DNA of 64,000 nucleotides from the NCBI RefSeq assembly GCF_000210915.2, contig NC_016620.1, positions 1,488,001-1,552,000 on the forward strand, given 5' to 3'. Positions 4,933 through 50,212 of this stretch are shown in pieces. Each line of letters opens with the position of its first letter. Position 1 is the stretch's first letter. A program made the translations under genes and the position numbers. Source of the DNA: Halobacteriovorax marinus SJ (lineage in GTDB: Bacteria > Bdellovibrionota > Bacteriovoracia > Bacteriovoracales > Bacteriovoracaceae). The notes under the pieces are model-generated. The model was not told the DNA's origin and made no database searches. It saw only the letters and a program-made list of their open reading frames with translations.

Positions 4933-5140
4933 TTTAAAACTTCACTCAAAATTCACTCGATAGCTTCTTCTACTTCTATAGAAAAGTAACAGGTATCTCT
5001 TGTCTCAATAAGGATTTGGGGAGAGGTAAAGCATAAACTTTGCAATTATTTCATAGTGATTAGCTCGTTCTTGCGCTGCGTTATTTCTCATGTTAGTTAC
5101 TCTTTGCAATTTAAATACATAATTAAACAAGGGATAATCT

Positions 5141-5767
5141 ATGAAATTAGCACTTTTGACTTTTGCACTATTTACGTTAGGTTCACAAGCATTTGCTTGT
5201 ATTGATATTAATGATAACAAGATTTGCAGAGGTGATACTGTGTACCCTGATTCATGGGATCATTCTCGTGGTGGTGTAGTAAAAGCTATAAACCCTCACA
5301 CTCAAAAGATGACAGTAAAGTCTAATAATACTGGTGACACTTTTCGCTTTAGAGCAAATGAGGTTTCTCTTGCATTAGGTTGTCTTGAGAATGTTTGTGT
5401 AGGTGACAAAATTTACCCTGATTCATGGGATCACTCTCGTGGTGGTGTAGTAAAAGCTATAAATCCTCACACTAAAAAGATGACAGTAAAATCTAATAAC
5501 ACTGGTGACACTTTTCGTTTTTTTGAAGAGGAAGTCTCTATTGGTAGAGGGTGTATAGAGGGGATATGTGTAGAAGATACCGTTCTTCCTGACTCTTGGA
5601 ATCATACTCGTGGAGGTGTAGTAAAAGCTGTTAATCCTTATACAAAAAAAATAACAGTTAAATCTAATAACACTGGTAACACTTTTCGTTTTACTGCATA
5701 TGTTCTTGCTGTCTTAGATGAATGTCTTGATTATGATAACTCTCAAAGATATAACTACGAATTTTAA
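5141..5767 (+). CDS. Secreted protein with three near-identical 57-residue repeats
   Basis: 208 residues with a signal peptide (MKLALLTFALFTLGSQAFA). The mature chain is almost wholly three tandem 57-residue units, each with a GDxVxPDSWDHSRGGVVKA core followed by INPHTKKMTVKSNNTG and DTFRF, and a Cys pair in the linker (CLENVCVG, CIEGICVE). The glycine/valine spacing recalls small SH3-like beta-barrel repeats, but I cannot assign a family. The core is far better conserved than the 3' part of each unit. AAGGGAT upstream of the ATG serves as ribosome binding site. A hairpin and a bidirectional terminator follow. Function unknown; export and Cys pairs suggest an extracytoplasmic binding role. 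Confidence 0.8.
   Translation: MKLALLTFALFTLGSQAFACIDINDNKICRGDTVYPDSWDHSRGGVVKAINPHTQKMTVKSNNTGDTFRFRANEVSLALGCLENVCVGDKIYPDSWDHSRGGVVKAINPHTKKMTVKSNNTGDTFRFFEEEVSIGRGCIEGICVEDTVLPDSWNHTRGGVVKAVNPYTKKITVKSNNTGNTFRFTAYVLAVLDECLDYDNSQRYNYEF
5231..5743 (+). repeat. Three tandem 171-base direct repeats inside the secreted protein gene
   Basis: Units begin at 5231, 5402 and 5573, exactly 171 bases (57 codons) apart. The first ~115 bases of units 1 and 2 are nearly identical; unit 3 is more diverged (e.g. SWNHTRGG in place of SWDHSRGG). The phase is kept in frame, pointing to unequal exchange or slippage within a coding sequence. Confidence 0.93.
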
Positions 5768-5792
5768 AAAATAATTTACTGTATATTACGAT

Positions 5793-5819
5793 GTCCTGAC
5801 TAATTGTAATAGTTAGGAC
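5793..5819. repeat. Hairpin downstream of repeat-protein gene
   Basis: GTCCTGACTA (5793-5802) pairs with TAGTTAGGAC (5810-5819), a ten-pair stem with one G-U and a seven-base loop. No T-run follows, so alone it is not a classic terminator; it lies directly in front of one and may act as an RNA 3'-end stabiliser. Confidence 0.6.
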
Positions 5820-5830
5820 AAATATAAAAT

Positions 5831-5853
5831 GCCACCTCTACGGGTGGCTTTTT
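5831..5853. terminator. Bidirectional intrinsic terminator
   Basis: Stem GCCACC (5831-5836) / GGTGGC (5843-5848) with a six-base loop, followed on the forward strand by TTTTT. On the reverse strand the same stem is followed by ATTTTAT. It sits between two convergent genes and can serve both. Confidence 0.85.
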
Positions 5854-5872
5854 ATATTGAAATAGTTTTGAA

Positions 5873-6394
5873 TTAAAACTCTACTTCATCTAAGTCAATT
5901 GCACTATCACATCTATTTGGATCATTTATATCAAAGATAGGTCTTGAAGGACTTGGAGCAGGCTTGCAAATATTATTGCTACATTCACCGTTTACGAAAC
6001 CTGAAAAACATCTTAAGGCACAACTCTTTTGGCCTTGAGCATCCTGACCAGTTGAAATAATAAAGCACTTTGTTACTCTTTGCTTTGCGCAGAAGCTATC
6101 ATCTTTACAGCTTTCTCCAATTGGCTTTGAACAAAATAGTTTAGTGGCAGGGTTATGTACTTTACATTGACCTTGAGTCGAATCACAGCACGAACTTGAG
6201 CATTCTGAGTCCTGAGTACAGCTCTCTCCCTCTGATAATCCAAATTTATTACACTCTAGAACTGCCTTAGAAATACTGAGCATATTAATTTTTAAGGCCT
6301 CATTTTCAGCACATTCAAAAGTGGATCTATCTAATCCATTTGCATGAGAGGAGTAGAAGCTTAATAAGAAGATAAACGACATCATTAATTTCAT
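5873..6394 (-). CDS. Secreted cysteine-rich protein of unknown function
   Basis: 173 residues with a signal peptide (MKLMMSFIFLLSFYSSHANG). The mature chain is rich in cysteine, with a clustered pattern CTQDSECSSSCCDSTQGQC followed by GESCKDDSFC and a further set of Cys to the C-terminus, suggesting a small disulfide-bonded fold; the C-xn-SCCD arrangement superficially recalls animal dickkopf/colipase-type knots, without evidence of homology. The last segment is acidic and rich in P and D. Unknown function; convergent with the repeat protein and sharing its bidirectional terminator. Confidence 0.7.
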   Translation of the reverse strand: MKLMMSFIFLLSFYSSHANGLDRSTFECAENEALKINMLSISKAVLECNKFGLSEGESCTQDSECSSSCCDSTQGQCKVHNPATKLFCSKPIGESCKDDSFCAKQRVTKCFIISTGQDAQGQKSCALRCFSGFVNGECSNNICKPAPSPSRPIFDINDPNRCDSAIDLDEVEF

Positions 6395-6641
6395 GATTAT
6401 TCTCCATTAGATACTTTAGTAATGTATTTATTTTTATCTTAAATAGCTTTTATTAATAGCCGGTAAAATTACGCTTCTCTAGCAGTGTCGTCTGGTATCT
6501 AGATCGAAATTCAGTTACTTATAGGGCCAAATTTACACTTTTGAGCGCTCATTTACTTTAAGTAAATTGACTAAAAATCATACATACTGAGTAAGGCTTA
6601 CAAGCGAATTGTTTATTTTTACGAGTGTGGTTAAATGGGGC

Positions 6642-38837: not shown

Positions 38838-39058
38838 TTCGCTACTTTGAAGTGTGCCTTTGACATATCCATTGAATAGATAATTCTATCCTCTGTATCT
38901 AAAAATTGAAACTGTCTCTTCTAAGTTCTTAGAATTATTGATTTCTTTTCCCTGTAATATCTAACTACTTGGTTTTATGGGTTTGACATGGGTAGCTATC
39001 TCTAGTTAAAACCTAGGAATAAAATTACTTTAACAAAGCTGCCCATTTGGAGGAAGAC

Positions 39059-40006
39059 ATGAATGCAACAACTGAGAGAAAGGTTCCAGAGTTAAGTTTA
39101 CTAAGTTATGTGAATGGAACAAATGCTGATCAAGTGAAATTTGTGGACGATATCATGTACGGACTCAAAGACTATGGTTTCATCGTTTTAAAAGATCACA
39201 CTGTAGATCAAAAGAAAGTTGATATGGCCTATGAATACCTCAGTGAATTCTATGCACTTCCATTAAGTGTTAAAGAGAAGTATGCAGGCAATAATGGTGG
39301 TCAACGCGGGTATACTCCTTTCAAAGTTGAGCACGCAAAGAATAATGATAATCCAGACTTAAAAGAATTTTGGCACGTGGGAAGAGAGCTAGCTGCTACT
39401 TCTCAATATAAAGGAGTTTATCCTGAGAATGTTTGGCCAACAGAGGTTCCTGAGTTTAAAGAAACATTTCTTCAACTCTATAACTCTATGGATACGACTT
39501 CAGGGATCCTTCTTGAGGCCATTGGTAGGGGTTTAGATGTTCCTTCTAGTTTCTTTGCTGAAATGATTAATGATGGAAACTCTATTCTTAGGGCCATTCA
39601 CTACCCACCAACAAAAGGTGAAGACACGAAGAATTCAATCAGAGCAGCTGCTCACGAAGATATAAATCTTATCACTATGCTAGTGGGTGCAACTGAATCT
39701 GGTCTTGAGCTTCTTGACCACGATGGTACATGGCTAGCTGTTGATTCTAAGCCTGGAGAAATTGTAGTTGATACTGGTGATATGATGAGTAGACTTACAA
39801 ATGATGTGCTTCCGGCCACTACTCATAGAGTTGTAAATCCGACAAATGACGGTTCTAGAAGATTCTCGATGCCATTCTTTGTTCATCCTCATTCTAAGGC
39901 GAATCTATCTTGTCTACCAAGTTGTGTCGGTGAGGGAGCTAAGTATGAAGATATAACTGCTGGAGATTTTCTGGTTCAAAGACTTAAGGAAATTGGTCTC
40001 TACTAA
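39059..40006 (+). CDS. 2-oxoglutarate/Fe(II)-dependent oxygenase (isopenicillin N synthase-like family)
   Basis: 315 residues from ATG 39059, preceded by GGAGGA; the TTG at 39047 is rejected because that ribosome site would lie within it. The fold matches the IPNS/plant-type dioxygenase family: N-terminal DIOX_N-like segment (YGFIVLKDHTVD, GQRGYTPFKVEHAK), iron ligands His199 and Asp201 (AAHEDINLITML) and His256 (TTHRVVNP), and R268-F-S270 for 2-oxoglutarate. Substrate unknown; bacterial members hydroxylate, desaturate or cyclise small molecules. It has its own hairpin terminator and lies 137 bases before the diiron oxygenase operon, on the same strand. Confidence 0.88.
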   Translation: MNATTERKVPELSLLSYVNGTNADQVKFVDDIMYGLKDYGFIVLKDHTVDQKKVDMAYEYLSEFYALPLSVKEKYAGNNGGQRGYTPFKVEHAKNNDNPDLKEFWHVGRELAATSQYKGVYPENVWPTEVPEFKETFLQLYNSMDTTSGILLEAIGRGLDVPSSFFAEMINDGNSILRAIHYPPTKGEDTKNSIRAAAHEDINLITMLVGATESGLELLDHDGTWLAVDSKPGEIVVDTGDMMSRLTNDVLPATTHRVVNPTNDGSRRFSMPFFVHPHSKANLSCLPSCVGEGAKYEDITAGDFLVQRLKEIGLY

Positions 40007-40041: not shown

Positions 40042-40143
40042 AGTTGTCAAAATCTTATACACCCCTCTATAACTAATTCCTATCTACTGTAATAAAATTC
40101 ATTTGCTTCTAATATTAAGAGAAATAAATATTAGAGGTATATT

Positions 40144-41148
40144 GTGAAGATCGACATCTACGATGAGCAAAGACTTGCTCGTCAGCTTGAAATTCAAAAG
40201 AAGAAGTCATGGGATATCGAAAAAGATATCAACTGGGACCAAGGAATTGATTTAAGCAAATCTTTTCTTCCTCTAAGTAATATTGATTCGCTCTTTACTG
40301 GAGCAAGTAAGCCTCAGCTAAGGGCCATTTCACAGCTCATGGGACTCATTGTTGCTTCAACGATTTCTCAGTTAGAGGACGTTGCCTATAGATTAAAGGT
40401 TCCTGTATGGGAGAGTTTTCTAAGAAAGCATCCTGTGAACCCTGAACTCTACCAACTTGGTGAGCAATTCTTTGAAGAGGAAAAGAAGCACTCAAGGGCC
40501 TTTAACCAATATATTGACCTCTTTGCTAAAGAAGTAAATATTGATCCTATAGACTTAAAGAGAATTCTTCCACGCGCTCACAATACGAGCATTGAAAAAA
40601 TATATACATTAAATTCTAAAATCGGTGGTATGGCCATGTGGTGGTTAATTGCTGCTGTAGAAGAAGAGTCTATACTCTTTTATCATCTTTTAAACGAGGT
40701 TAAAGATCATGTTGATCCTCTCTATTACAATTTACATCGTTGCCATTTTGAGGAAGAAGTAAGACATAAGAGTTATGCTCATATGATGCTTGAAGTTTAT
40801 AATGAATTTTCAAGTACTCCTAGTTCATATGTCTTTAAGAAAGTAGACTTCATTTTGGCCGAAGTTCTAAATATGACGTGGACATTTTCTCAGCTTCTCA
40901 AGGTTAAAGAGTTTAAGAAATTTCGTCATCACCATGAATTCTTCAATACACTTGAGAGTAGTCTCGATTTATTAAAAGGGAAGTCTCAGTTAGATATCTT
41001 AGGCGCTCTCTTTACATCTACTCCATATATTACACATACGATTCATCTCTCTGAGCATGGACATATTAATGCTCTTTTAAATAGATATAGTACAACTCGC
41101 TTACCTATGCCTAAGTCAAAACTAGGGGAGATTAAGTGTACTGTGTAG
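40144..41148 (+). CDS. Diiron oxygenase-like protein (AurF-type ligand set)
   Basis: 334 residues, GTG start after AGAGGT. A ferritin-like four-helix diiron site is readable: Glu78 (QLEDVAY), Glu113-x2-His116 (EEEKKH), Glu173/174 (VEEESI), and His201-x3-Glu205-x2-His208 (HFEEEVRH). This seven-ligand set with three histidines and its spacing matches the AurF-type N-oxygenase family as I know it, so an oxygenase is more likely than ferritin. Substrate unknown: AurF oxidises arylamines, but here the neighbours (hydrolase and two desaturases, overlapping or abutting downstream) suggest a fatty-acyl or lipid-derived substrate. First gene of a four-gene operon. Confidence 0.72.
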   Translation: MKIDIYDEQRLARQLEIQKKKSWDIEKDINWDQGIDLSKSFLPLSNIDSLFTGASKPQLRAISQLMGLIVASTISQLEDVAYRLKVPVWESFLRKHPVNPELYQLGEQFFEEEKKHSRAFNQYIDLFAKEVNIDPIDLKRILPRAHNTSIEKIYTLNSKIGGMAMWWLIAAVEEESILFYHLLNEVKDHVDPLYYNLHRCHFEEEVRHKSYAHMMLEVYNEFSSTPSSYVFKKVDFILAEVLNMTWTFSQLLKVKEFKKFRHHHEFFNTLESSLDLLKGKSQLDILGALFTSTPYITHTIHLSEHGHINALLNRYSTTRLPMPKSKLGEIKCTV

Positions 41149-41978
41149 ACTCTAGATTTAGAAATGGACTCGAGATTTTCTTTATAAATGAAGTCAAAGA
41201 CTTTGATAGAGATATTATCGTTATGCTTCACGGCTTTCCTGACGATGCATTTAGTTTTGAAGGGCAAATAGAGTCTCTTAAAGAGCGCTTTAATATCATA
41301 GCTCCCTTTATGCACGGAGTTCTAAATGATTCTGAGTTGAATAAGAATAGGATTTGCCCAAGAGAGTTGATTCACGACATTCTTCATCTCTTAAAAGAAG
41401 TTAATCCAAACGGTGAAAAGAGAGTTTATCTAATGGGTCATGACTTAGGCTGTTTTCTCAGTACGGCCATTGCTCAAATCTCTTCTCATCAAATCAAGGG
41501 GATCGTACATATTAATGGACTAGGTCTGCAACAATTCTATAGTCGTAAATATAATCTCAATCAATGGATTAAGTCATATTATGTTCTGCTTACTCAAGTA
41601 AATATTTTTCGCTTCTTTGTTACAAAAGTTTTTCCTGATTTCTTTTTAAATTTAATTTATAAACTCTCATATATTGAAAAAGATCATGATCTCTATCAAA
41701 GAGATAGAAGAGTCTTCAATTCTATTTATATTTATAAATATCTCTTTAGAAAGACCTTTTCTCTTATCGGTGCTCCGACGATGAAAGTGTCTGTTCCAAC
41801 TTTATTTCTCTGGGGGAATCGAGATAACTTCTTAGAGATTCCAAGTTTAGTTGAAGTCGAAAAATTCTATGATAAAGCGCAAGTGAGAGTTCTTCCAGGT
41901 GGTCACTGGGTACACCTAAGCGCTCAGGATAAAGTTAATAGGATACTAGAGAATTGGTCGGGGTTTTGTCATGAATAA
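41136..41978 (+). CDS. Alpha/beta hydrolase with Asp nucleophile (epoxide hydrolase/dehalogenase-like)
   Basis: 280 residues, GTG start with AGGGGAG at 41124-41130, overlapping the diiron gene by 13 bases. The fold shows the oxyanion HGFPDDAFSF, the nucleophile elbow GHDLG with Asp103 where esterases have Ser, an acid in LWGNRDNF and His257 (GGHWVHL). An Asp nucleophile is the mark of epoxide hydrolases and haloalkane dehalogenases. Sitting behind an oxygenase, an epoxide hydrolase on an oxygenated lipid is plausible. Overlaps the first desaturase by eight bases. Confidence 0.8.
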   Translation: MYCVDSRFRNGLEIFFINEVKDFDRDIIVMLHGFPDDAFSFEGQIESLKERFNIIAPFMHGVLNDSELNKNRICPRELIHDILHLLKEVNPNGEKRVYLMGHDLGCFLSTAIAQISSHQIKGIVHINGLGLQQFYSRKYNLNQWIKSYYVLLTQVNIFRFFVTKVFPDFFLNLIYKLSYIEKDHDLYQRDRRVFNSIYIYKYLFRKTFSLIGAPTMKVSVPTLFLWGNRDNFLEIPSLVEVEKFYDKAQVRVLPGGHWVHLSAQDKVNRILENWSGFCHE

Positions 41979-42858
41979 GTTTCTAAACGATAAATTCTAT
42001 CTACTAAGATATTCAATTATTCATTGTCTTATCTTCTTTCTATTGTCTTTCGTACTCTTTAATTTCAGAGAAATTGATTTAGATCTAAGTTGGAGACCGA
42101 TACATATACTTTATATTCTCACTGGGCTATCTCTATGTGGATTGCCTGCAGGTCTTTTACACAATTGTGCTCATCGCAATGTAGGTCCTAGATGGTTTAA
42201 TGATTTAGTAGGAGAGTTCTTAGGTAGTGTAATGCTGTACGGATATAGAGGATTTTCTCTTGGACACATGTTTCATCATAAGTATCCGGATAATCCTAAG
42301 TATGATCCACATCCACCTCGTGGCTATAGCTTCCTACGCTTTGTTGTCTCTCCAATTGAGGCAACTCTAATTATAATTGAGCGCGCTTTCTACGAGCAAT
42401 TTGGCGACAATACAAAGAATAGATCATTAATTAAATATTCTAGATTTTTCTTTAATTTATCGATTGTATTAAAACTAGTGTTCTGGTTTCTCTTTCTTGG
42501 TGCTAGTGCCTTTATTTACTTCTATATGGTCTTATATATGGCAAATATCTTTGTTTTTGCCCATATTAACTATGCTACCCATATTGAAAATGAAGACGGT
42601 AGTTCAGAAATTATAAATTTAGATAATAACCTCTACTATAAAGTGGTTAATAAGATATCTCTGGGTGGTTACTATCATAAGAATCATCACTTGAGACCGA
42701 GGATCTTTAACCCTTCTAAAGTCGTTATTAAAAAAGAGGTGCCGCTTATTTCATATACACCAGAATATGACTTAAGAACTCCAAAGCGTGGAAAATTATT
42801 TTCTCTCAGTTGGATTAATGGATTAGAAGAATTAACTCAGAAATTAAAATTGGATTAA
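41971..42858 (+). CDS. Membrane fatty acid desaturase/hydroxylase family protein (1)
   Basis: 295 residues with about four to five membrane helices and all three histidine boxes: HNCAH, HMFHH (followed by KYPDNPKYDPH) and HKNHH (YYHKNHH). These bind the diiron centre of membrane desaturases and related hydroxylases. Length is at the short end for acyl-lipid desaturases, nearer to beta-carotene hydroxylase-like members. Overlaps the hydrolase gene by eight bases. Close paralogue of the next gene (HMLHHIHADDEENDPH versus HMFHHKYPDNPKYDPH). Confidence 0.85.
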   Translation: MNKFLNDKFYLLRYSIIHCLIFFLLSFVLFNFREIDLDLSWRPIHILYILTGLSLCGLPAGLLHNCAHRNVGPRWFNDLVGEFLGSVMLYGYRGFSLGHMFHHKYPDNPKYDPHPPRGYSFLRFVVSPIEATLIIIERAFYEQFGDNTKNRSLIKYSRFFFNLSIVLKLVFWFLFLGASAFIYFYMVLYMANIFVFAHINYATHIENEDGSSEIINLDNNLYYKVVNKISLGGYYHKNHHLRPRIFNPSKVVIKKEVPLISYTPEYDLRTPKRGKLFSLSWINGLEELTQKLKLD

Positions 42859-42861
42859 AAG

Positions 42862-43668
42862 ATGAATAAGTATCGCAAGGATCGAAATTACTTTTTAAGT
42901 TACTTCAATATTAATATTGTGGTCTTCTTAACTTTGAACTTATTGCTTCTCTTTGCAAAGAAGAGTTTCTTCGATTTTAATTTCTCACTCGAGTTATTAC
43001 TTCTCATTCCAGTAGGATGTGTCTTTGGCCTTGTGGTTGCCACAGCTTTTCACAATGCTAGTCATGGCAATATTAAACCAAAAACTCTCAATACTATTGT
43101 CGGAGAGTTCTGTGGCGCTTTCGCACTAGATGGTATGAGAAACTTTAGAGTGGGCCATATGCTACATCATATCCATGCTGACGATGAAGAGAATGATCCT
43201 CATCCTCCCCATGGTCTAAGTTTTCTAGAGTTTATTAAGACTTCTAAAGATAGAACTATTCAAGTGCTTATCAGAGAGTATTATAAGCATCATGGGCAAA
43301 CTCGTGAATCAGAGAGAAATATTGAATTGCAGCTATTGTCTTATAAAATAGGATTCTTGTTAAAAGTTACTTTTTGGTTTCTCTTATTTGGACCCGCTCT
43401 CTTCTTACTCTTTTATATTCCTGCTTTTGCCAGTTATTTCTTTGGATTTGCACATCTAAATTATATTTCTCACGGGATGAATGAAGACGGTGAGTCTGAA
43501 GTTTTAAATCATGATGGTGGGATATTTTATTCTGTAATGAATTTTCTAACAAGTGGTGGTTACTACCATAAGAACCATCATAAATATCCAAAGCTCTACA
43601 ATCCTTCGAGGTTGGATAAATTAGAATCTCACTCCAATAGCAAATTTAGAGTTTACAATCCCAGTTGA
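42862..43668 (+). CDS. Membrane fatty acid desaturase/hydroxylase family protein (2)
   Basis: 268 residues, tandem paralogue of the preceding gene, three bases after its stop. Histidine boxes HNASH, HMLHH and HKNHH (YYHKNHHKYP) are intact, with the same spacing. Membrane helices are comparable. Two similar enzymes in one operon could act at two positions of one substrate or as a heteromeric pair. The last 48 bases overlap the facing outer-membrane protein gene, adding about 15 residues after the conserved core. Confidence 0.85.
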   Translation: MNKYRKDRNYFLSYFNINIVVFLTLNLLLLFAKKSFFDFNFSLELLLLIPVGCVFGLVVATAFHNASHGNIKPKTLNTIVGEFCGAFALDGMRNFRVGHMLHHIHADDEENDPHPPHGLSFLEFIKTSKDRTIQVLIREYYKHHGQTRESERNIELQLLSYKIGFLLKVTFWFLLFGPALFLLFYIPAFASYFFGFAHLNYISHGMNEDGESEVLNHDGGIFYSVMNFLTSGGYYHKNHHKYPKLYNPSRLDKLESHSNSKFRVYNPS

Positions 43669-44523
43669 TTGCTCATCTCCAGTTGTAAAAGTTTCTTTGG
43701 CAACGATATTTTCAATTTGTAGCTCTGCTATAAATGAATATGATGATTTCTCAGGAGAGGTCTCATAACCTAATCTAAAGTAGGGAAGCAGTGTTGCTGA
43801 GCCAGTCTTAGTGCTGTCAGCGACCTCAGTTGAAGACTTTCCAATTCCTGCACCAAGTCCAGCATAAATATGACTTCTAGAATCTCTTAACTGATTGAAG
43901 TGGTATGTGATATCGGCAATAAGAAAGTTTCTAGTAGAAGGGATTGATCTATCGGGATTCGTTCCCTTTGCTGTATCGCTATCAAATCTTACACCACCAC
44001 CAATTTCTAAGTGACGATTCATTCTCTTTGAATATGTTGCTTCAAAGTGTAGAGTTGTTCTTGAGTCCAGCGATTCCGCAGCAACTTCTGATGTTGACTG
44101 AGATAGAGAGACTCCCCATGAAGCCCTAAGAGAGATATAATTTCCAACGATATTTCTTAGATAACTCTCTTCTTGCTTTTGTTCTACCTCTCTTAACTTG
44201 GTTAGAGCGACTTCACTCCATATTCTTTCCAGAGAAGAAGTGTAAGTGACAACTTCTTCAGGGTTAAAAGGGACAGTGGCCTCTTTATCGAGCAGTGTCC
44301 AGAGTGAGTAAAAACGAGTTACTTCAGTTGCTCTAGCAGTAAATGAAATATCAGTTGTTGAGAAAAGGGATATCTGACCTTTAGAAATACCAAAGTCTCT
44401 CCCTTTTCTAATTACAAATGTCTTCTTGGAGTTTGAAATTGATTGGATAATAACTAAGTTATCACTCGCTTGTACAAATACAGGCGCAATTAGAAGAGAA
44501 AGTATAATTATCAATTTATTCAT
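43621..44523 (-). CDS. Putative outer-membrane beta-barrel protein
   Basis: 300 residues with a signal peptide (MNKLIIILSLLIAPVFVQAS). After ~100 residues, including a helical linker (WSEVALTKLREVEQKQEE), alternating hydrophobic strands dominate (ISLRASWGVSLSQS, FLIADITYHF, IYAGLGAGIG, PYFRLGYETS) and the chain ends VNSKFAIGVRF with terminal Phe, the usual outer-membrane assembly signal. No family recognised. It faces desaturase 2 and overlaps it by 48 bases, the longest overlap in the window. Confidence 0.7.
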   Translation of the reverse strand: MNKLIIILSLLIAPVFVQASDNLVIIQSISNSKKTFVIRKGRDFGISKGQISLFSTTDISFTARATEVTRFYSLWTLLDKEATVPFNPEEVVTYTSSLERIWSEVALTKLREVEQKQEESYLRNIVGNYISLRASWGVSLSQSTSEVAAESLDSRTTLHFEATYSKRMNRHLEIGGGVRFDSDTAKGTNPDRSIPSTRNFLIADITYHFNQLRDSRSHIYAGLGAGIGKSSTEVADSTKTGSATLLPYFRLGYETSPEKSSYSFIAELQIENIVAKETFTTGDEQSTGIVNSKFAIGVRF

Positions 44524-44776: not shown

Positions 44777-47700
44777 ATGAGGAATATTTGGTTTAAAAAT
44801 TTATTAGCACTTCTAGTGATGGGACTAGTAGCTTCTTGTGTAGGTGAGAAGAAGGGGCAGAACCCTAAGTGTGCTACTGGTACAGCTTTTAATAAATTAA
44901 GCCAGACTTGTGTTGCCTTTGGTAAGGTTCCAACATCTACACTTAATACTGTTACTCTTACTGAGGATCAGGCACCAAAAACTTTCACTCTTCAATATAC
45001 TGATGATAATAATGACGAAGCAGTCATGTGTGAAGTTTTTGATAATGAATCTGATATTGAAATCAGATCGCCGCTATTTTCATCTGTAACTCCAGATGTA
45101 ATTGCAATTATGAATCAATTAAATCTCTGTGCTACAGGAATTGATCCTGTCACATATGCTGCTCAAAGTGCAACGGCACTAGCGCTGTATTCATCTGCAC
45201 AAAATGCAAGAGATGGAATCTTATCAACAGACACAACAGTTGGTATGTTAGCTGCACTTGATACTTTCAATACAAACGTTAGGAACTTGGCCAATTACTG
45301 TGTGGCCATTTCTAATATTCCAATTGTTGTCTTCTACGGTCAGTCTGCTAATAACTCTATGGATGAGCTTCTAGTGAAGAGGTCTTGGGTTGAGAGAAGA
45401 TGTTACTGTGTAGGCGGTGAGTGTAGTGCTGAAGTATCTGCTCTAAAAGATAAGTTTGGTTCTTACGGAATTTCATATAATATTTCAGATACACCTGATG
45501 GAACTTCTGTTACTAAGCAAGTAACTATTGAAGTTGAAAGTGTTAATGATCGTCCAATTGCTCAAGATGACCACTTTACAGGTACAGAGAGTGTAACAAC
45601 AAGTACTTTGCCAATCGCATTTACTATTCCAATCGGTAGAGATGTTGAAAGTGATGGTTCATTCTCTCTTACTTATAGTATCGTTCAAGCTCCTCTTAAT
45701 GGAATAATTACAAGTTGTGCTCTGGCCAATGATGGTTCTTCAGCAAATGATAGAACTTGTTTCTATATACCAAGTGATCCAGATGCTAATGTGGCCAGTC
45801 CACTAACTGATAAATTTGCATCTCTCTCTATTCCAAGTACGAATGCTTTAAACAATATTGTCTTTACAGCGAATGCCGCTGGAAGTGTAGGAGAGGGAAT
45901 CTCAGTTATTATGGAGAGTGCAACTCTTTTAAATACTGCGAATAATGTTGAAATTGAAGTTGATCCAGTCGGTAAGGTTATTACAATCTATATTGATGAC
46001 GATGTCACTCAAATTGACTCGGTTATCTCTGCCGTGAATTCACATTATATTTCTTCTTCTTTAATAACTGCCTCTAAAACAGGTGGTGCAAATGATGTGC
46101 TCTCAACAATGAGCTCTGCCGCTTCTTTAAGTGGTAGTTCAACTCCTTTTGATAGTTTCACTTATAGAGTGAGTGATGGTGAAAGCACGAGTGAGTCTGT
46201 GGGGACAATTTCTGTCGATGTTGAATCGGCCGACGATCCACCTATTGCTCAGACAACTCCATCTGCATCTCTAATTTTTACTGAAGATACTCCGCAGACA
46301 GTGAGGCTGACAATTGCAGACTCTGAAAATGATACAGCAACTAGTTGTACTGTAACACCTGCAAATGCAAACCTATTGATAAGTAACGCATGTACTTGTC
46401 CAGTGGGGCAGATGTATTGTGATGTTGAGTTTACTCCTGCTGAAGATTTTAGTGGAGCTGCTCTATTTACATGGAGTATCTCAAATAATGGTGTAGCTGG
46501 AGTTCAGTCTACTCCAAATAAAATTGAAACAATTACTGTTAACTCTGTAAATGATGCTCCATTCGCTAAGAATATTGCAATTGATCTAGGAACCGAATCA
46601 AATACAGCATTTCCTACTACATATACATTTAATCTCTCTGATGCTGGAGACGCTCTTGGTGTAGATATTGATGGAAATCCTCTGAGCTATGAATTGACGA
46701 GTGCTCTTGGTGGAGCAACTTTAACGGGCTGTATCTCTGGAACAATTCTTCTCCCTGGAGCAAATTGTCAATATACTCCAGTAGATGGAAATGTGAATGG
46801 AGTCTCTTCAAAAGCAAGTGTCACTTATGTTGTCGGAGCGGGAAGTATTCTTTTTGAATCTGTAGCCGATGGTCAAAATATGAATAGTACTCAAGTTATT
46901 ATTCAAGATTCTCCTTTATCAGATGTTTTAGGAACATTTGTAAAGGTAAGTAGTACTTCTCCAACAAATGTCGATGTGAATATCTATATTGATCTAGGAA
47001 CATCAACTCTTGCTGATATCCAAGCTGCTATTGCCGCAGACCCATATGCTAGTGAACTCATTACTACGCCGACAGTTATTTCAGCTGCTACAATTGCAAC
47101 TGCAGGTTCTGTTACTCTTACAGGTGCAGCAAATGCAGTTGATATTTTAGAATTTACTGCAACAGACCCAAGTGGTGCGGTTGCTTACGGATCAATTCAT
47201 CTAAACCTTTTGACACAAGATGATTCTCCTGTCGTTTGCCCTTTCTCTGATTTTGTAGATGCTCCAGAGTGTGGTTTAGCCGGATGTTTAGGAACTGCAA
47301 CACCTATTGGAAATGTAACACCAAAAAGTATTGGTGTTCTTTATTACGATAAAGGAGCAGCGGTCTGTTATAGAAGTAATGGTATCTCATCAGCAAATGA
47401 TTGGGAGATCGTTACTGACTATACTAGTATAATTGAAAAGAAAATTGTTAATCAAAACGGTTCTTTTGAAATTGATAATATTAGAATTGATGAGGGTGGT
47501 GCTGATACTGTTGAAGATGCAGATACTATCTCTATTACAAATATTACAATTGCTGATGGAGGTCTAGGTCTTATTCCACGAAAGGCCTCTAATATCCAAG
47601 TATTCTATGACAATAACCCTGTGACTATTACTCCCGCTGTTCCAGGAGTAGGTGTTCCAATGACTGGTACTCTCGGTGATGGCGGTGCAAGCTCAGATGA

Positions 47701-50212
47701 TCTTGCTGTTAAAGTTAAAATTATTCCAAGTGATGGTGTAACGGGAACTGCTGTTGTAACGATCACTTTTTCAGATGGTACAAATAATGTTGATCTCGCG
47801 ATTCCTGTTGAGATCACAGATGTGGCCGTTCAGCATAAGGGCTGGGCCAATATCATAGCAATGGGTCCTAAAGTAGATAAGAATGGTAACGTTAAAGACT
47901 CTAGCTATGTTTGTAACTTTAGTGAAACCAAGTGTAACGATGGAGAGTCTTGCTCTGGAGTAAGTGTTCCATCAGGTAGTGTCGTTGCTGACGAAGTGAA
48001 TGCTATTTACTATGAACAACCTTCAGTAAGTAAGCCAGAAGGGCAGTGTTACTATGCAACGGCTACAGGAAGCTCAAATTGGGTTGCCTTTAATTCATAT
48101 TGTAATATGACAGCGAGTTTCTATGACTCTGCTTGTACTAATGCGACTTGTATGGATAGTGCGCCTCCGGCCAACGAGCCTGAGAATCTAAATACATTCT
48201 TTACTGATCTTCAATATGACAGCGTTAATAATATAGCGCAGACGACTTGTTATAGATCAATTGGTAGAGCTCTACCTAGTGGGGCTGCTCTAACTCCTGC
48301 TCAAATTGCCAACTCATGGCAAGAATATAAAGGAACAGGATCAGTTGAATTAAGATGGAATACAATGCTTCTAACGGGGAGTGGAACAATTAGTGGTTTC
48401 AATGTCTTTAGAAGATTACCTCTTGAAGACTTTGATTATAAGAGACCAATTAATAAGAATTTGATCTCTGCCTTTACTAACGAATATATCGACAATTCGG
48501 CCAACTCTAACTTTGGTCCAATTCCAAATACAGTTTACTTCTATGAAGTCGTTCCTGTTGTATCAACTGGAACGCCTGCTCAGAATGTTCAGATTAGATC
48601 TTCAGATTTTGAAAAAATTGTTTTAAGAGTTCTAGTTCCGGGACAAAATAAAGTTCTAGTGCCAAGAGATATCGTTAATATTACTCAATGTGATAAGCTA
48701 TTAGACTCATCAGGTTCTGGAAGTAACTATGAGTATGATTCAAGCTTAAAGACATTTACATGTCCTTATGAAGGTCCAGGTGATACTGGGGCAGCAACAG
48801 GATCAACTATTTATGACTTTGGTAGAGACTTAATCGTCGATAGATTTGAGGCAGGTTGCCCTTATACAAAGAGTAATGAGAGCATTGAATCTTGTCCTAC
48901 AGGTTTATCAAATGTTGCAACAAGTGGAAGTTGTATTGGGACTGTTGATCCTACTGTTGCTGATGGTGGGGGACCAATCTCTTTTACTACTCCTGCTGAT
49001 CAAGTTTACTACAATAGAGATAGTGGAAAGTGCTTCCAATATGATGGAGCAACATGGAATGAGTTTAATACTCTCTCTCCAGCAAGACTTGCAACATTAG
49101 CAGATCGCTATGAAAATGCAGAACTTCCACCAATAGTCTATACCACTCAAGGTTCAGCAAATAACTTCTGTGCAGAGACTCAAACTGAGGCAACTTTGGG
49201 GGTTTGTGTTGTGGGAGGTACTTTTTCAATTGATGGAGCAACTGGAAGATGTAGTGATTCTACAGGTGGTGCTTACGAGAATTATAATAATATCTCAGGA
49301 AGATTACCATCTAGAAAAGAGCAGGTGGCCTACTCAGATTGGGATTTAACAAAGATATCTGACTCTGTAGCAAGCACGAGAGAAGGTGGGCTTTCACTTA
49401 ATTCAAATTCAAAGTGTAATACAAGCTCGGCCAACGGTCTTGAATCATTTTATACAGATTCTGTGACGCCAATTTCTAATACACTTTATACTTTACCTGG
49501 AACACTCTCAAGTTCAATTCGCTCACTGATGACTGGTTCAGAACAAACAGCACTTTGCTCGTCTAAGTACGGAGTTCAAGATTCTATTGGAAATGTGAAT
49601 GAGTGGTCGAGTGATAGAATGTTCTGTGATTCATTTATGTGTAGTGGTCTAGCTTCTACTGTTGTTCCTGGTGGAGCTGCAGACCCTGACTATATAGGAA
49701 ATGGAGATGATGATTTCTTCCCAGCTGATGGAAGTAATGCAAACTTTATTCGCTATGTCTTCAATGGAGATACAGGACCATGTATAGATAGTAATTCAGA
49801 TGGTACGTGTGATGGTTACCTTTCTTCTTGGATTTTTGATCAGAAGTCAAATGGAGCTTCACGTTTCTTTACTCCAATGGGATTACCTGCGGTCACAACT
49901 TATATAGCTGATCATGGTGGAGACTTTGTCTCTAACTTCTTTGAACAGATTGGTATCTCAAGTGGTATCACTTCTACAAAGCTTCATGATGATACAATTG
50001 TTGTAAATCAAGAGCGACTTGATCAAACTAATAATCCAACCAATGTAAACGGTCTGGCCGGTATGACAACAGGTGGAAGTTACCTCACTAGTAATGGAGC
50101 GGGAACTTATCACTTGGAATTAATTGCAGTTGATGACCCAGCGTATAATAATAGGGTAGATCTAGGTTTTAGATGTGTATTCCCTGTTGATAATACTCAA
50201 TATATTGAATAA
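44777..50212 (+). CDS. Giant surface lipoprotein with cadherin-like repeats and FGE/sulfatase-modifying-like C-terminal domain
   Basis: 1811 residues. The signal peptide ends in a lipobox (GLVASC, Cys21). The body carries several cadherin/VCBS-like units marked by VESVNDRPIAQDD, EDTPQTVRLTIAD and SVNDAPFAKN, plus Cys-rich insertions (e.g. CNFSETKCNDGESCSG). From about residue 1360 a formylglycine-generating-enzyme-like (sulfatase-modifying factor, C-type-lectin-like) domain can be read: VDRFEAGCP, GRLPSRKEQVAYSDWD, SIGNVNEWSSDRM and GFRCVFP. In secreted bacterial proteins this fold usually binds ligands instead of oxidising cysteine. Likely displayed on the outer membrane for adhesion. The orphan ParA gene follows 94 bases downstream. 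Confidence 0.78.
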   Translation: MRNIWFKNLLALLVMGLVASCVGEKKGQNPKCATGTAFNKLSQTCVAFGKVPTSTLNTVTLTEDQAPKTFTLQYTDDNNDEAVMCEVFDNESDIEIRSPLFSSVTPDVIAIMNQLNLCATGIDPVTYAAQSATALALYSSAQNARDGILSTDTTVGMLAALDTFNTNVRNLANYCVAISNIPIVVFYGQSANNSMDELLVKRSWVERRCYCVGGECSAEVSALKDKFGSYGISYNISDTPDGTSVTKQVTIEVESVNDRPIAQDDHFTGTESVTTSTLPIAFTIPIGRDVESDGSFSLTYSIVQAPLNGIITSCALANDGSSANDRTCFYIPSDPDANVASPLTDKFASLSIPSTNALNNIVFTANAAGSVGEGISVIMESATLLNTANNVEIEVDPVGKVITIYIDDDVTQIDSVISAVNSHYISSSLITASKTGGANDVLSTMSSAASLSGSSTPFDSFTYRVSDGESTSESVGTISVDVESADDPPIAQTTPSASLIFTEDTPQTVRLTIADSENDTATSCTVTPANANLLISNACTCPVGQMYCDVEFTPAEDFSGAALFTWSISNNGVAGVQSTPNKIETITVNSVNDAPFAKNIAIDLGTESNTAFPTTYTFNLSDAGDALGVDIDGNPLSYELTSALGGATLTGCISGTILLPGANCQYTPVDGNVNGVSSKASVTYVVGAGSILFESVADGQNMNSTQVIIQDSPLSDVLGTFVKVSSTSPTNVDVNIYIDLGTSTLADIQAAIAADPYASELITTPTVISAATIATAGSVTLTGAANAVDILEFTATDPSGAVAYGSIHLNLLTQDDSPVVCPFSDFVDAPECGLAGCLGTATPIGNVTPKSIGVLYYDKGAAVCYRSNGISSANDWEIVTDYTSIIEKKIVNQNGSFEIDNIRIDEGGADTVEDADTISITNITIADGGLGLIPRKASNIQVFYDNNPVTITPAVPGVGVPMTGTLGDGGASSDDLAVKVKIIPSDGVTGTAVVTITFSDGTNNVDLAIPVEITDVAVQHKGWANIIAMGPKVDKNGNVKDSSYVCNFSETKCNDGESCSGVSVPSGSVVADEVNAIYYEQPSVSKPEGQCYYATATGSSNWVAFNSYCNMTASFYDSACTNATCMDSAPPANEPENLNTFFTDLQYDSVNNIAQTTCYRSIGRALPSGAALTPAQIANSWQEYKGTGSVELRWNTMLLTGSGTISGFNVFRRLPLEDFDYKRPINKNLISAFTNEYIDNSANSNFGPIPNTVYFYEVVPVVSTGTPAQNVQIRSSDFEKIVLRVLVPGQNKVLVPRDIVNITQCDKLLDSSGSGSNYEYDSSLKTFTCPYEGPGDTGAATGSTIYDFGRDLIVDRFEAGCPYTKSNESIESCPTGLSNVATSGSCIGTVDPTVADGGGPISFTTPADQVYYNRDSGKCFQYDGATWNEFNTLSPARLATLADRYENAELPPIVYTTQGSANNFCAETQTEATLGVCVVGGTFSIDGATGRCSDSTGGAYENYNNISGRLPSRKEQVAYSDWDLTKISDSVASTREGGLSLNSNSKCNTSSANGLESFYTDSVTPISNTLYTLPGTLSSSIRSLMTGSEQTALCSSKYGVQDSIGNVNEWSSDRMFCDSFMCSGLASTVVPGGAADPDYIGNGDDDFFPADGSNANFIRYVFNGDTGPCIDSNSDGTCDGYLSSWIFDQKSNGASRFFTPMGLPAVTTYIADHGGDFVSNFFEQIGISSGITSTKLHDDTIVVNQERLDQTNNPTNVNGLAGMTTGGSYLTSNGAGTYHLELIAVDDPAYNNRVDLGFRCVFPVDNTQYIE

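Follow-up and report, generated by a model that had tools for sequence, protein, structure and literature searches.

What reaction is served by a row of genes that encodes a putative diiron protein, an alpha/beta hydrolase and two membrane desaturases? These genes occupy positions 40144–43668 of a 64,000-nucleotide stretch of the Halobacteriovorax marinus SJ genome (NC_016620.1, positions 1,488,001 to 1,552,000), which is called the window in the following. An initial annotation, made from the letters of this DNA, had described them as an operon with an AurF-like diiron ligand pattern. The explanation that we tentatively favour, with a probability of about 0.42, is a two-step oxidation module (AurF-like protein and epoxide hydrolase) joined to a desaturase module and acting on an acyl lipid. 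The AurF-hydrolase pair and the gene order are conserved, and the catalytic sets are intact in all four proteins.

A constant gene pair with alternating partners

The four open reading frames (ORFs) lie on the + strand (Table 1). ORF1 and ORF2 overlap by 13 bp and ORF2 and ORF3 by 8 bp, while 3 bp separate ORF3 from ORF4. Re-reading of the sequence gave the same ORFs, overlaps and residues as the initial annotation. ORF1 starts with GTG, and a Shine-Dalgarno sequence GAGG (40134–40137) is located six bases 5' of this start. Gene overlaps are also seen in the relatives, so that coupled translation of the overlapping genes is likely. Promoter and terminator scans gave no signal above shuffled sequence.

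When 84,980 species were scanned by pattern, 29 loci were detected, almost all of them carrying the label Bdellovibrionota or one of the older deltaproteobacterial names of this phylum, and the AurF-like gene was found in 34 of 369 genomes of the phylum. In every within-family locus examined (31 of 31), an epoxide hydrolase gene is located directly downstream of the AurF-like gene. The genes behind this pair are of two types. In type A, represented by ten loci including the window, the hydrolase is followed by the desaturase pair, and in the co-occurrence survey that had been proposed initially the four genes were found together in nine other loci; at an additional locus, L022, there is one desaturase gene instead of two. 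Type B comprises 17 loci in which an M24 pita-bread enzyme stands behind the hydrolase, with a short-chain dehydrogenase/reductase (SDR) alongside except in one locus that ends at a contig edge. The M24 metal-ligand residues and the SDR catalytic residues are conserved in type B. Four loci reach the contig edge or contain neither downstream set. Since the desaturase pair alternates with the M24-SDR pair, what is conserved as a unit is the pair of oxygenase and hydrolase and not the four genes that had been presented as the set, although these do co-occur in relatives.

H. marinus 36_234_T64 carries one type A and one type B locus, indicating that a single cell can make use of both. In the AurF-like tree (94/96) as well as in the hydrolase tree (96/94), type A is a single clade, and the desaturase form has one origin. 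Two distant AurF-like proteins (L023 and L053) have no adjoining hydrolase. In one metagenome-assembled genome, the AurF-like frame is interrupted (L051:5992-6968, same locus as L101), which may be an assembly error or a pseudogene. An enzyme other than a peptidase may be encoded by the M24 gene that follows the epoxide hydrolase at L031:6788-8459 and in the remaining 16 loci of type B.

No description of the gene set, of PF10118 (a related family treated below) or of their combination was found in the open-licence papers searched, although one elsewhere is possible; within these papers, the initial statement that this is not a described set holds. Each of the enzymes can be placed in a known superfamily; no account was found in these papers of their combination, of the constant AurF-hydrolase pair or of the alternating downstream modules.

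The AurF-like diiron protein

The product of ORF1 scores 39.0 bits against Pfam AurF (PF11583), over the gathering cut-off of 29.6, under which some members of the AurF-like family fall. Alignment of 31 homologues showed E78, E113-x2-H116, E173 and H201-x3-E205-x2-H208 to be invariant throughout, which confirms the AurF-like ligand pattern recognized at the outset. These seven residues make up a set of three His and four carboxylates in AurF order. Glu173/174 had been named jointly as one ligand; residue 173 is Glu throughout, whereas a few homologues have H or Q at position 174, so E173 rather than E174 is the ligand candidate. The ligand distances, which had been said to match those of AurF, equal them with the exception of E173-H201, which exceeds the distance in AurF (E196-H223 = 27) by one residue. 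The AurF residues D135, H139, E196, D226 and H230 and an HxxDExxH-type motif have been described (PMC12101540). The positions preceding E113 and E205 (112 and 204; D135 and D226 in AurF) are always Glu or Asp, mostly Glu. Judged by this residue set, the AurF-like protein would bind two irons.

The AlphaFold model of the protein is confident (pLDDT 91). Using this model, Foldseek matched R2lox, ribonucleotide reductase R2 (RNR R2) and AurF, but the best E-value was 5e-3 and none reached 0.001; AurF (3chu) had the highest TM-score (0.52/0.56) among the 50 matches listed. Thus, of the profile and structure searches suggested initially, the former reached AurF over the cut-off and the latter reached it weakly, together with other ferritin-like proteins. 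In a sequence search against the PDB, no direct match to any AurF chain was obtained. Overall, the diiron protein combines the ligand set of AurF with a predicted ferritin-like fold, while its sequence has diverged very far from that of AurF itself. It shares with AurF-type N-oxygenases (AurF, CmlI) a probable ferritin-like fold, the ExxH and HxxxExxH motifs, the ligand set and a near-identical spacing, whereas it differs from them in its remoteness, in the longer E173-H201 distance and in its epoxide-hydrolase context instead of an amine pathway.

The epoxide hydrolase

The product of ORF2 contains an HGxP motif (32–35), the nucleophile D103 within G-H-D-x-G, the cap tyrosines Y149 and Y200, D230 and H257. 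D103, Y149 and Y200 are present in all 31 homologues and HGxP is invariant, while D230 is found in 29 of 31 (Glu in the other two) and H257 in 30 of 31 (one row is truncated). An Asp triad with a Tyr-Tyr pair is the usual signature of alpha/beta-hydrolase epoxide hydrolases (PMC8244358). The best PDB match in hmmsearch is the metagenomic epoxide hydrolase CH65 (5ng7; E 3e-46), and the best Foldseek matches of the model are the epoxide hydrolases 5ng7/8agm (TM about 0.8). With both cap tyrosines invariant and CH65 ranking best by sequence and fold, the protein can be called an epoxide hydrolase, as a predicted activity. The Asp-nucleophile hydrolase of the initial annotation, left there between epoxide hydrolase and dehalogenase, is narrowed accordingly. 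In dehalogenases, halide-site residues take the place of the Tyr-Tyr pair; a haloalkane or fluoroacetate dehalogenase was rejected, as the pair is present and dehalogenases rank below epoxide hydrolases.

The top NCBIfam match of the hydrolase, under its cut-off, is PRK05855 (NF004514), an EphD-like hydrolase-SDR fusion. The hydrolase half is homologous, and type B operons hold both halves as separate genes. Unlike the fusion, the window hydrolase is single-domain, has no SDR gene in its operon and scores higher with CH65 (5ng7). EphD modifies epoxymycolates and cleaves 9,10-epoxystearate (PMC7998700).

The tandem desaturases

Both remaining products match Pfam PF00487 over the cut-off (DES1, 90 bits; DES2, 65.9 bits). 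The His boxes of DES1 are H64xxxH68, H99xxHH103 and H236xxHH240, and three boxes are kept without exception across 21 desaturase sequences, DES1 and DES2 alike, in agreement with the tandem desaturases called initially. DES1 and DES2 are paralogues with 37% identity, and no full type A locus has DES2 without DES1. Compared with other PF00487 membrane fatty acid desaturases, which share the boxes and a score over the cut-off, the window set is a tandem paralogous pair and reaches no specific curated subfamily.

In the family genomes, type A desaturases (about 350 bits or more) adjoin the AurF-hydrolase pair, except for a single match located where a contig ends. Other tandem desaturase pairs, scoring about 220–265 bits, form a second group that occurs without the AurF-hydrolase pair, and for this reason the tandem pair looks like a separate module that joined the oxygenase-hydrolase pair. 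Stand-alone tandem pairs, with no AurF-like or hydrolase genes nearby, were seen in other family members (L096-L100, around 5000–6600). One locus (L103:4058-9544, same locus as L030) contains a second, divergent tandem pair just upstream of the cassette, in addition to the pair within it.

As for the substrate, a search for phytoene/squalene synthase (SQS_PSY) gave no match in the complete genome, while seven control genomes gave matches; carotenoid, hopanoid and sterol substrates for the desaturases are therefore unlikely. An assignment to carotenoid hydroxylase/ketolase (CrtR/CrtW) was rejected, with 24 bits against a curated cut-off of 475 and no phytoene/squalene synthase in the genome. 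A carotenoid-isomerase/CrtI-like FAD protein is encoded at L106:5511-6890, next to an oleABCD-like row, despite the lack of phytoene synthase in this genome.

Counterparts in the PF10118 family

The diiron protein borders the cut-off of PF10118 (33.2), with 32.6 bits in the Pfam search and 34.4 bits, just over, in a six-frame search. By hhalign, PF10118 and the AurF-like family align across the metal motifs (ExxH, E, HxxxExxH; E 2e-5), and PF10118 matches six of the seven ligand columns; the first Glu could not be aligned. In plasmid records of Dietzia, Burkholderia and Embleya, a homologue of the type B M24 enzyme has an EphD-type hydrolase-SDR fusion and a protein of PF10118 as neighbours, and the Dietzia cluster adds a PDR/VanB reductase and a TetR regulator. 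These clusters resemble the cassettes of the phylum in their aligned metal residues, EphD-type hydrolase, SDR and M24 enzyme, but the window has two desaturases and lacks M24 and SDR. A plasmid tblastn with AurF-like proteins gave one weak Nostoc match or none.

PF10118 shares the metal motifs and adjoins EphD-type hydrolases, and EphD acts on epoxides. This supports a logic of epoxide formation followed by epoxide opening, and suggests that the name "metal-dependent hydrolase" of PF10118 is probably wrong. The AurF-like clade and PF10118 might even together be diiron epoxidases committed to an epoxide hydrolase as partner, in a widespread undescribed system of lipid epoxidation and hydrolysis with interchangeable downstream modules, which in Bacteriovoracales would be joined to the tandem desaturases and yield a diol or oxylipin-like lipid. 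This broader proposal is speculative and we consider it doubtful.

Possible functions of the cassette

In the two-step oxidation that we favour, the AurF-like protein, with O2 and an unlinked reductase, would place one oxygen atom onto the substrate, most likely converting a C=C bond to an epoxide. The hydrolase would open the epoxide via an Asp-ester intermediate to a vicinal diol, and the two desaturases, probably as a pair, would either introduce the double bond or modify the same acyl chain. We infer epoxidation rather than N-oxygenation or hydroxylation, as well as this order of steps and the acyl-lipid substrate. The hydrolase gene next to the AurF-like gene in all 31 family loci, the seven invariant ligands with five conserved hydrolase residues, the single type A clade in both trees and the type A desaturases adjoining the pair (one contig-end exception) argue for this explanation, as do the link of the hydrolase to PRK05855/EphD, known to act on lipid epoxides, and the lack of a phytoene/squalene synthase. 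Several points weigh against it. No reductase gene is found within the four-gene operon, the Foldseek E-values are weak and AurF is not among the PDB entries reached with the sequence profile. Moreover, type B has M24 and SDR in place of the desaturases, so the core needs no desaturase product from the same operon.

The chief rival is N-oxygenation, because a three-His site is typical of N-oxygenases (PMC12101540). The AurF-like protein would then convert an amine to a hydroxylamine, nitroso or nitro group on an amino-lipid or small amine, while the hydrolase would act on a later product or in detoxification and the desaturases would modify the amine-attached acyl chain. This is unlikely in our judgement, even though the 3-His/4-carboxylate set is complete and has acidic second-sphere positions (E/D112, E/D204), which were called largely N-oxygenase specific (PMC12101540). 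It is not obvious why a pathway of N-oxygenation would require an obligate epoxide hydrolase. In addition, the window protein is only distantly related to AurF, and most of the signature is also found in PF10118 proteins, for which we know of no N-oxygenase role. The M24-fold enzymes, on the other hand, include C-N hydrolases, which would fit a nitrogenous substrate in type B.

The cassette might instead be a catabolic or detoxifying module, in which lipids or terpenoids from prey or from the environment would be attacked by the oxygenase-hydrolase pair, with the TetR-linked PF10118/EphD/M24 clusters of other phyla as its counterparts. The gene content of the Dietzia plasmid, with a core shared by Burkholderia and Embleya, agrees with such a role, as do the patchy distribution within the phylum and the predatory life of the host group, which digests prey lipids. 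However, type A has no M24, SDR or regulator and carries desaturases, which are usually biosynthetic, so that we find this role quite improbable. Very unlikely is an oxidation or recycling of long-chain olefins from OleABCD, in which the diiron protein would epoxidise the internal alkene and the hydrolase open the epoxide. Homologues of oleA, oleB, oleC and oleD do stand in a row in the genome (G000:C1 about 1,409,990–1,414,496), H. marinus OleA is active (PMC7064751), and OleA homologues occur in the type A genomes checked (G000, G001, G002, G003, G023, G059, G113, G114, G119 and G120). Nevertheless, OleA is present in most family genomes with or without the cassette, making the association non-specific, and type B carriers of family f3 gave no OleA match at 1e-50.

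Nitrogen oxidation is the chemistry for which AurF-type diiron sites are mainly known, and a clade tied to an epoxide hydrolase in every locus examined would extend it to carbon. PF10118 would, if this is true, gain a function. Type A and type B, with a fixed core followed by either a desaturase pair or an M24-SDR pair, lend themselves to a comparison aimed at the class of substrate common to both.

Neighbouring and related features

Table 1. Positions of the cassette genes, of a neighbouring gene and of related features outside the window
Feature	Position	Strand	Basis
AurF-like ferritin-fold diiron protein, 334 aa (amino acids), candidate O2-dependent oxygenase/epoxidase (ORF1)	40144..41148	+	Pfam PF11583, ligands, AlphaFold, Foldseek
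Alpha/beta epoxide hydrolase (predicted), 280 aa (ORF2)	41136..41978	+	conserved catalytic residues, hmmsearch against PDB, Foldseek
Membrane fatty acid desaturase DES1, 295 aa (ORF3)	41971..42858	+	Pfam PF00487, His boxes
Membrane fatty acid desaturase DES2, 268 aa (ORF4)	42862..43668	+	Pfam PF00487, His boxes
2-oxoglutarate (2OG)-Fe(II) oxygenase, isopenicillin N synthase type; neighbour, probably outside the cassette	39047..40006	+	context comparison
PF10118 "metal-dependent hydrolase" proteins adjoining EphD-type epoxide hydrolases	L088:2711-3604, L086:10726-11631, L087:5695-6648		
oleABCD-like row for long-chain olefins and CrtI-like FAD protein, outside the window	L106:989-6890 = G000:C1 about 1409990-1415890		

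The 2OG oxygenase gene is located upstream of the cassette in the window and in two congeners (L013 and L014). It was rejected as a fifth gene of the cassette, being missing beside the type A locus of H. marinus 36_234_T64. On the other side of the cassette, beyond a convergent gene (43621–44523), positions 44777–50212 of the window encode a putative secreted lipoprotein of 1811 aa, in which repeated cadherin/VCBS-like stretches can be seen by eye.
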